Of a stretch of 40,353 bases of DNA, positions 29,854 through 32,069 are shown in pieces; the first letter of the stretch is position 1; each line of letters begins with the position of its first letter. Source of the DNA: a virus; IMG/VR virus record IMGVR_UViG_3300009553_000047, positions 1 to 40,353 of that record; one strand, given 5' to 3'. Both the position numbers and the translations under genes were made by a program. Under the pieces are notes generated by a model, which ran no database searches, was not told the DNA's origin, and was given only the letters and a program-made list of their open reading frames with translations.

Positions 29854-29947
29854 ATATCTTGAAGTTTCGCCTCCCTTGCGTTAATGGGATATCGCTTAGC
29901 AGCGTTAAAGCCAATTCTTCGTAGAGGAGTTCGAACCCTCAAGATAT
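29854..29947 (+). ncRNA. Candidate tRNA-like structured leader RNA B (94 nt)
   Basis: A perfect 9-bp closing stem, ATATCTTGA (29854-29862) with TCAAGATAT (29939-29947), encloses CCC...GGG, CGC-TTAGCA-GCG and GAGG-A-GTTCGAAC-CCTC. The last arm resembles a T-arm and adjoins the closing stem, as in tRNA, but the loops do not fit a working tRNA. It lies 71 bases before the capsid gene. Confidence 0.35.
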
Positions 29948-30018: not shown

Positions 30019-30507
30019 ATGACTATTACAACTACTGGTTCCTTGGGTCCTATGATCCTCCAGTCACTAGCGCCGTCGATGTTATATACCCCGACGCCTG
30101 GTATGCCTTATATTATCGTGGCGGATAAAATTTCCATGCCACCAAATGGCGGTACAACATGCCGTTTTATGAGACCTAGAGCACTAACACCCCCAACAGT
30201 GCAACTTGGTAATAGTGGTATTGATCCACCAGCACAAGTTCCACAACGGGATATCATAGACGCTCAAATGGCCTTCTTCGGTACTGGATGTATCATCAAT
30301 GAACAGGTTATTTTACAGGACCAAGAGGGTGTATTAGCTTGGGTCTCTGATAGACTGGCTGTAGCAATGAGACAGGCAGAAGATTTAATTTTAAGAGATT
30401 ATATCTTATCTGCTGCTTCACAGATTAATGCTGGCGGAGGATCCAATGGCTTCAACCCGACCAATCTAGGTCTAACAGACTTTAGCTTGGTTGCTACAAC
30501 ACTCGAT
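30019..30507 (+). CDS. Major capsid protein, exon 1 (residues 1-163)
   Basis: ATG 30019, ribosome site in AAGG upstream. The reading frame otherwise runs to a stop at 30564, but from 30508 it is intron. The exon covers MTITTTGSLGPMILQSLAPS and VPQRDIIDAQMAFFGTGCIIN, typical of HK97-fold coat proteins of the P22/N4 gp56-like group, with the AMRQAEDLILRDYI helix. It ends in ...ATTLD in phase 0. Together with exon 2 it gives 326 aa, about 100 shorter than P22 coat, possibly without the extra insertion domain. Place after the scaffold supports the call. Confidence 0.85.
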
Positions 30508-31577
30508 AAACTTTGTGTCGAGTATAAATCTTTGGTAATTGACTTGGAGTGCCTGGCTGCGTAAGCGGAGGTTAACAAGGCGGAAGGCGAAAGCCACCGT
30601 GAGAGACTAAATCCAGAGACCCGAAAGGGATGCGATAGTCCGACCCATGAATATATATGAAATCATGGAGACTAGCAGAAATGACTAGTCCGCTTAAATA
30701 ATAGGTTGGTTGAGTTGACGAGCTTTTTGATAAATTTCTTCTCTTCCAGAGAAATCTTTGGAAAGAACTTTTTCCCTAAGTTTCATCAATTCAGCGCAAA
30801 TAGGTTTTTTGTGAACCAGAAAAGGAAAAATACCTTGAAGAATAGGATCAAGTTGCAAATTTGCAATTCTCCAAAGCATTTGGTTTCTACAATTAGGAAG
30901 ATGACTTTTGTCCAAAAAATGGAATTGTCCTCCAAATTTCCTAGAAGCCCAGTAAAAAAATGGAGACTTGGAATTATTACATTGCAATTGAGCACGATAA
31001 GTGGGAGTTTTTCCCCTTTTTTGAATTACTTTGTTAATGTCGAGACTACACTCTGCATCAATAAATCCTGCAAGATAAGCAAAATCTTCTTCAGTAGGTT
31101 TAAGTGTATTTCTAACCGATTCAATCTCTTCTTTAAGAGAATTTTGAATGAGATAAGTTTCTTCTTTAAGTATTTTCATAGCCTTAACAAGGGATTTCCT
31201 AGAATCTTTAAAGTTAAGGGATCTGAAGTTAAGGAAAACATCGCATTCTTTAGATTTCTCGATAAGATAAGGTTTTATTCGTGCAAGAAATTTGTATCCT
31301 TCTTTGGTAAACACAAAATGATAGGATGGAACTCTGTTTTTTTGTTTTGTTTTTTTAACTTGAATCGTTCCTTCGAAATGATCGTTGAACCATTCAATGT
31401 TATCAAGATGAGTAGAAATAATAGAGAAGGTGTCTTGAAAAAATGGAGAAGTTTTAATTTCTCCAATATAAAAACACCCATCTCCATCGATATAACCTGC
31501 TGCGTATGCTAACCATGTTTCATTCATGAAAGAATGATAACATTTATGCATTATTTGAGTCAATAAGTAACAGTAAG
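30508..31577 (+). ncRNA. Group I intron in the capsid gene (1070 nt)
   Basis: P1: exon end CUCGAU (30502-30507) pairs with the guide GUCGAG (30517-30522), giving the U.G pair at the cut. P10: UUUGU (30512-30516) pairs with 3' exon ACAAA (31578-31582). The intron ends in G (31577). The core shows P6-type GGC-GAAA-GCC (30586-30595), P7 GACTA/TAGTC (30605-30609 and 30636-30640), P8 CCC-GAAA-GGG (30620-30629), and P9-type hairpins (30646-30667 and 30670-30690). Exon join keeps phase 0. Exact boundaries are my prediction; the core match to the group I pattern is seen directly. Confidence 0.88.
30694..31551 (-). CDS. LAGLIDADG homing endonuclease, antisense within the intron
   Basis: 285 aa from ATG 31551 (or 277 from 31527); a TTG start at 31581 would cross the splice site and is less likely. 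Two LAGLIDADG motifs, LAYAAGYIDGDGCFYI (about residues 14-29) and FAYLAGFIDAECSLDI (about 156-171), show a monomeric two-domain enzyme. In the second motif the usual DG pair is EC; Glu may still serve as the acidic catalytic residue. It should cut intron-less capsid genes and spread the intron. It is read against the capsid gene, so it needs its own promoter. Confidence 0.88.
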   Translation of the reverse strand: MHKCYHSFMNETWLAYAAGYIDGDGCFYIGEIKTSPFFQDTFSIISTHLDNIEWFNDHFEGTIQVKKTKQKNRVPSYHFVFTKEGYKFLARIKPYLIEKSKECDVFLNFRSLNFKDSRKSLVKAMKILKEETYLIQNSLKEEIESVRNTLKPTEEDFAYLAGFIDAECSLDINKVIQKRGKTPTYRAQLQCNNSKSPFFYWASRKFGGQFHFLDKSHLPNCRNQMLWRIANLQLDPILQGIFPFLVHKKPICAELMKLREKVLSKDFSGREEIYQKARQLNQPII

Positions 31578-32069
31578 ACAAATAACGCTTATAAATTTAT
31601 GAGCGGTATCGAGGGAATGGATCGATTTGGTACAGGCCCTATAAGAAGCGCTTATTTCATGATTAGCTCAACAGAGCTTCAATCTGATTTTGACGCGCTT
31701 GTAGGTCAGGGTGTATTAAACAACTGGAATTATCCTTCAAATGCGTCTGCATTACCTCTAGAATGGGGTTCTGTATACAACATTAGGATTTTAACTAGTT
31801 CCGAAGCGCCTGTGGCTAGAAATGCTGCTATTGATAGCGACGGTGATGTAGCCGACGTTTATTATAATGCTGTGATGGGCAAACAAGCTGTGACACACAT
31901 ATCTCAAGATGGTTTTTCCATGAACTTGATTTATCGTGGTCCAGAGTTTAGCGGTATGTTACAACAGAATTGTACTCTTGCAGTTAAGTTTGCTCAATCG
32001 CAAGCGTTAACACAAGACACCGCGATCCGTAACCTTGTTTGCACTAGAAATAGTGCTTTGGGGGTGTAA
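31578..32069 (+). CDS. Major capsid protein, exon 2 (residues 164-326)
   Basis: From the predicted splice point the frame reads TNNAYKFMSGIEGMDRFGTGPIRSAYF, continuous with exon 1, and ends at TAA 32069. The region MSGIEGMDRFG...SEAPVARN...AVTHISQDGFSMNLIYRGP is the conserved C-terminal half of this coat family. An apparent ATG at 31599 lies inside the exon and has no ribosome site, so it is not a separate gene. The next gene starts two bases after the stop. Confidence 0.85.
   Translation, partial: TNNAYKFMSGIEGMDRFGTGPIRSAYFMISSTELQSDFDALVGQGVLNNWNYPSNASALPLEWGSVYNIRILTSSEAPVARNAAIDSDGDVADVYYNAVMGKQAVTHISQDGFSMNLIYRGPEFSGMLQQNCTLAVKFAQSQALTQDTAIRNLVCTRNSALGV

Follow-up and report, generated by a model that had tools for sequence, protein, structure and literature searches.

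The 40,353-nt record IMGVR_UViG_3300009553_000047 from an uncultivated virus, analysed over its whole length and termed the window below, carries a terminase gene and a P22-like portal gene followed by a major capsid gene with a group I intron. The gene order and a match to PHROG 1357 ('major head protein') identify the interrupted gene as capsid gene. Its frame starts at 30019, stops with TAA at 30562-30564 and resumes at 31578. Inserts were mapped with a purpose-written spliced aligner against a capsid protein profile of 322 columns built from 30 intronless relatives; inserts of at least 24 bases were allowed, resolving the junctions around codons 88-105. The alignment placed a single intron of 1,070 nt exactly at 30508-31577 (+ strand), after codon 163 and in phase 0, flanked by exon 1 (codons 1-163, 30019-30507, +) and exon 2 (codons 164-326 plus stop, 31578-32069, +), and thus bore out the frame break at 30564, the resumption near 31578 and the in-phase join proposed in a preliminary description of this DNA. 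The join, TTLD/TNNAYKFMSG, is the same as in intronless relatives, in which nearly all of these residues are invariant, and the joined protein reads through TTLDTNNAYKFMSG, matching these relatives. The spliced protein matched PHROG 1357 at 8.8e-14, compared to 0.017 and 5.9e-5 for the halves. Searches with the capsid DNA or protein against isolate phages and a PDB sequence search with the capsid returned no match, and an AlphaFold prediction of the capsid from a 23-row alignment reached a pLDDT of 31 without a usable fold.

As the aligner gave bonuses for boundaries with a T before the 5' cut and a G before the 3' cut, it is relevant that P1 and P10 independently fix the same boundaries. P1 (30501-30523, +) is formed by the exon sequence ACTCGAT (30501-30507) and the guide GTCGAGT (30517-30523), which pair over 7 bp with U.G at the 5' cut, and the intron ends in G31577. 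The P10 strand TTTGT (30512-30516, +) forms 5 bp with the beginning of exon 2, ACAAA (31578-31582). Both helices covary at the codon-163 site: P10 is TTGGT/ACCAA in L078 versus TTTGT/ACAAA in the window, and P1 position -7 is U-A in L065 and L071 versus A-U. Splice sites derived from these two helices, the U.G at the cut and the final G had all been part of the preliminary description and held up.

The catalytic core spans 30525-30693 (+) and comprises P3 (30529-30535/30613-30619), P4 (30543-30546/30576-30579), P5 (30551-30553/30570-30572), P6 (30580-30583/30597-30600), the pseudoknot P7 (30605-30609/30636-30640), P8 with the sequence CCC-GAAA-GGG (30620-30622/30627-30629), P9 (30645-30650/30663-30668) and P9.1 (30670-30675/30685-30690), all on the + strand. 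P7 and P8, already named in the preliminary description along with GNRA hairpins, lie within P3-P9.1 at 30529-30690. In an alignment of the short introns of relatives with the window intron, RNAalifold recovered P3, P4, P5, P6, P8, P9 and P9.1 with heavy covariation; P7 was added as a pseudoknot. Counted over 21 introns with P7 included, 95.9% of the cells were paired, compared to 37-43% with slid partners, and 34 of 40 core pairs covaried; P7 itself was paired in 100% of the sequences, with covariation in three of its five pairs. A covariance model of the core, R2, built without the window sequence, matched the window at 30525-30693 with 131.9 bits (E 6.9e-31) and gave nothing else convincing in the window. 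The Rfam group I models, suggested earlier as a check, did not match the intron at the gathering score or even at E ≤ 10, and it was the model built from the family that matched instead. The Rfam library misses this group I subtype and with it the whole family, so that more cases are likely to be unannotated. A 10-bp peripheral helix, read directly from the sequence, follows the core (5' strand 30693-30702, 3' strand 31550-31559, both +); short introns of relatives have a small hairpin at this position. Altogether, spliced alignment, covarying core and model match confirm 30508-31577 as a group I intron in the major capsid gene. The window copy is predicted to splice, in which case the core would excise itself via the two-step guanosine reaction typical of group I introns, cutting at 30507/30508 and 31577/31578.

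The loop of the 10-bp helix is occupied by a LAGLIDADG homing endonuclease gene on the opposite strand to the capsid gene (30694-31551, -; about 285 aa from the ATG at 31551). It matched Pfam LAGLIDADG_1 (1.4e-6, score above the cut-off) and PHROG 5046 (2.8e-29), and contains the two motifs AGYIDGDG and AGFIDAEC in one open frame. An antisense endonuclease is present in all five codon-163 introns (window, L016, L065, L071 and L078) and likewise in the long introns at codons 144/145; at other sites the genes are in sense orientation and lie in the P1 loop. Homologues of the endonuclease in isolate phages are only about 25-33% identical, and with the P1-loop endonuclease of a relative as query the sole match was its own contig. 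Intronless alleles of the codon-163 site occur among relatives, and the endonuclease may spread the intron by homing into intronless capsid genes.

Introns are frequent in the capsid genes of two groups of relatives: set 1, consisting of 80 related contigs with 79 capsid genes that have a readable start, and set 2, consisting of 50 further loci. At least one full intron was found in 44 of the 79 set 1 genes and none in the other 35, and all 88 core matches in the 80 loci (88/88) lay within the capsid gene. Over both sets there are about 25 insertion sites (codons 10, 21, 28, 33, 69, 77, 78, 90, 92, 96, 98, 101, 116, 120, 122, 123, 144, 145, 163, 167, 179, 181, 184, 215 and 300), with a maximum of four elements per gene. 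Short inserts of 30-79 nt, termed mini-introns here, also occur in relatives, not in the window, at codons 88, 91, 104 and 114. At codon 104 there are additional versions of 946-976 nt with a sense LAGLIDADG gene in the P1 loop (L031:2619-3590, L032:2640-3589, L035:1976-2951, L065:1540-2513, L068:2654-3606 and L074:2656-3601), whose guide lies 16-18 nt before the 3' end. The core model reported no core in either the mini-introns or the long codon-104 inserts. In the following, a unit is either such a coreless element plus the full intron that follows it, or a full intron standing alone.

If exon 1 remains unspliced, its frame extends into the intron as KLCVEYKSLVIDLECLAA-stop (30508-30564, +). 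This read-through tail ends in ...CLAA-stop, an ssrA-like LAA end, and its stop TAA 30562-30564 falls in the P5-arm loop. In E. coli, the ssrA tag has the sequence AANDENYALAA, whose terminal Ala-Ala is the most important element of this degron for ClpXP (PMC7652416). In set 1, Ala-Ala-stop in the exon frame was found in 49 of 85 inserts at codon 69 or later, in 0 of 170 cases in the other two frames, and at 0.43% of background stops. The first element of a unit ended in AA, VA, TA or SA in 52 of 55 cases, and beyond these one further unit, at codon 114 of L003, has an LA supplied by the exon. Such an ending was present in only 3 of 30 second (full) elements of pairs and in none of the eight introns at codon 33 or earlier. 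Concordantly, all 20 first elements of set 2 end in AA, one of them as ...AEQYALAA-stop. GCNGCN-stop was in frame with the exon in 68 of 78 cases across intron phases 0 and 2, and the Ala-Ala tags are written in 46 codon spellings. The stopless mini-introns at codon 88 all have a length of 2 mod 3 (9/9), so that a ribosome would enter the next exon frame-shifted and read LAA or VA-stop there.

The frame bias, the 46 spellings and the recurrence in two sets lend good support to selection on an Ala-Ala C-terminus across the relatives, as judged from comparative sequence data. We infer degradation of the stub as the reason for this selection. A tag on long stubs and not on tiny ones, placed once per unit, fits the removal of capsid stubs that could poison assembly. 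In the window, a ribosome on an unspliced or not-yet-spliced mRNA would read 18 intron codons and halt at LAA-TAA before most of the core, releasing a truncated 181-residue capsid stub with an ssrA-like C-terminal degron. A ClpXP-type protease of the host would then most likely destroy the stub before capsid assembly is poisoned. Among open PMC papers, we found none on degrons written in introns or on a link of phage group I introns to ClpXP. Beside the tails, we observed that many introns of 350-500 nt contain a small sense open reading frame (ORF) of 55-130 aa without a LAGLIDADG motif (L005:3382-3850, L027:3571-4000, L158:547-981 and others). The start of some of these overlaps the LAA stop (GCATGATGG), and translational coupling is possible.

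Several observations weigh against a degron function of the tail. ClpXP degraded GFP with a YALAA end but not GFP with a bare LAA end, so that efficacy of such a degron depends on an accessible tail (PMC7652416). The window phage is known from its DNA, and the ssrA sequence used for comparison is that of E. coli, which may not be that of the host. Related sequences were counted separately, and the tallies therefore exceed the number of independent events. The GC-rich LAA codons of full introns frequently double as a hairpin arm, and the capsid intron of phage LittleE and the intron of phage Baka have their AAA-stop in a hairpin; part of the LAA signal of full introns could thus be RNA structure. 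Taken further, LAA-stop might be a by-product of an intron arm resembling GCUGC-GUAA-GCAG, with the stop merely shielding the ribozyme core from ribosomes. The window is able to form such an arm at 30551-30572, and AAA-stop occurs as a hairpin in LittleE and Baka. However, a stop by itself needs no Ala-Ala, and the motif lies mostly in the exon frame, in 46 spellings. It is also found in mini-inserts and in inserts with a P1-loop endonuclease that lack this kind of hairpin, comes in some cases from the exon itself in a shifted frame, and is missing where the stub would be tiny and in second elements of pairs. We therefore regard a purely structural origin as unlikely.

Even less probable, in our estimate, is an ordinary homing intron with a tag that is a relic without consequence, efficient splicing keeping the unspliced product rare. 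Capsid protein is made in large amounts, and the LittleE authors presumed extremely efficient splicing (PMC3706429), but the persistence of Ala-Ala at numerous sites, in differing codons and at differing lengths, implies that selection is ongoing. Open reading frames on both sides of the insert would agree with a two-gene arrangement, in which the parts are separate proteins, or with a degenerate capsid gene. Since splicing yields the protein of intronless relatives, with both exons conserved and a covarying core, we give this explanation hardly any weight. A mobile self-splicing capsid intron whose unspliced stub is degron-tagged for ClpXP-type proteolysis is, in our judgement, the probable reading of the locus, with splicing, homing and proteolysis as its predicted steps.

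The coreless elements suggest an extension of this reading to the relatives. The mini-introns carry a degron tail (for example L071:2240-2295, L067:3415-3444, L077:2976-3010, L014:2974-3039 and 20 more). In all 24 distinct mini-introns of set 1, P1 includes U.G and measures 6-8 bp and P10 is contiguous; their P1 and P10 pairs sum to 300, compared to 130 +/- 8.5 in shuffles. At codons 88 and 104, P10 and an extra helix with the 3' exon covary with the exon to which they belong (permutation p ≤ 0.0005); the extra helix was not found at codon 91. As shuffle p-values for the 3' helix are weak on these short, AT-rich stretches, the own-versus-swapped exon test was used instead. The fungal-type combination of P7 and a terminal U was not observed: 24 of 24 mini-introns end in G, and a length of 30-79 nt offers little space; no search was aimed at P7 alone. 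Coreless elements were present in 31 of the 44 genes with a full intron versus none of the 35 genes without (Fisher 6e-12), and the next element downstream of a coreless one was a full intron in 30 of 30 cases. We infer that the core of the downstream intron splices the coreless ones. We lean slightly towards the combined view of intron-encoded capsid quality control with coreless 30-79-nt P1/P10-degron modules spliced by the next downstream core, one core serving two introns. Translational bypass was considered for the mini-introns and rejected: the take-off codon is GGT (codons 88 and 104), and the landing triplets are TAG, GCG, AAG, ATG, TTG, ACG and AGG, never GGN.

To our knowledge, group I introns that borrow the core of a neighbour are known only as an engineered idea. 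Removal of a foreign insert by a group I core has been demonstrated with engineered spliceozymes (PMC4094466). They resemble the proposed splicing of mini-introns in that a group I ribozyme excises a coreless insert between two splice sites, and differ in acting in trans, whereas the phage mini-introns carry their own guide. The nearest precedent is provided by 'degenerate' group I introns of fungal rDNA (PaSSU, 56-81 nt), for which in vitro splicing was reported given enough flanking RNA (PMC3160393). Like the mini-introns, these combine a G.U-containing P1 with P10 and a helix that joins the middle of the intron to the 3' exon, but they end in U, have P7 and reside in rRNA (PMC3160393). The mini-introns in turn are 30-79 nt long, end in G, carry the degron tail and always precede a full intron.

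Unlike the window intron, the T4 td, nrdB and nrdD and the SPO1-type introns reside in non-structural genes, mostly with sense endonucleases. td has an immediate stop and is not known to carry an Ala-Ala tail. Shared features are the P1/P10/P7 architecture, the final G, an early in-frame stop (PMC3984707) and a homing endonuclease. Such early stops, already known from group I introns, were read as keeping ribosomes off the ribozyme (PMC3984707); Ala-Ala is not part of that explanation. Tagging by tmRNA (ssrA) similarly places a C-terminal degron of the (Y)ALAA type on incomplete proteins (PMC7652416), but in the window the tag is encoded by the mRNA's own intron and not added by tmRNA.

The preliminary description had considered an intron in a coat gene notable. 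The location is less remarkable than that, as LittleE provides a precedent; the surprise lies in the LAA-stop, which had not been remarked upon, and in the intron load. LittleE has a group I-type capsid intron with a bottom-strand LAGLIDADG gene, whose splicing was proven by RT-PCR and N-terminal sequencing; splicing was likewise shown for the Baka intron, and a capsid-gene intron of the lactococcal phage Tuc2009 is cited there (PMC3706429). R2 detected the LittleE core (40 bits, E 1.3e-9). Placement in a major capsid gene, intron type, endonuclease orientation and a related core are common to LittleE and the window. The read-through ends in ...ATAAA-stop in LittleE (JF937101, 8872, L090) and in ...LAAAAA-stop in Baka (JF937090, near 28216, L170). 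In contrast to the group of the window, LittleE and Baka/Optimus (minor tail intron) differ in capsid gene and host and have a single site per phage; the authors note no degron in the parts of PMC3706429 considered here, and no coreless companions are known. A bare capsid intron with antisense LAGLIDADG gene is thus already known from LittleE, and what is new is the tag, the intron load and, in relatives, the coreless introns. The antisense endonuclease ORF, the in-frame LAA that precedes the stop at 30562 and the large number of relatives with introns had escaped the preliminary description.

Just 5' of the capsid gene, at 29859-29946 (+), the window contains a tRNA-like fold with a 7-bp acceptor and a GTTCGAACC T-loop (z -3.3), which ARAGORN did not call. 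Some relatives have real tRNA-Thr, tRNA-Asn or tRNA-Gly genes at the corresponding upstream place, and the fold is perhaps a decayed tRNA.

A highly expressed structural gene with an intron should leak truncated protein that poisons assembly. A degron read from the unspliced mRNA would be a simple, general and testable answer to the question of how an intron in a coat gene is tolerated, and would make the intron sequence a proofreading device under selection. If our reading of them is true, the coreless companions in relatives would be natural group I introns that borrow the catalytic core of a neighbour and would show how a dependent splicing system can arise.
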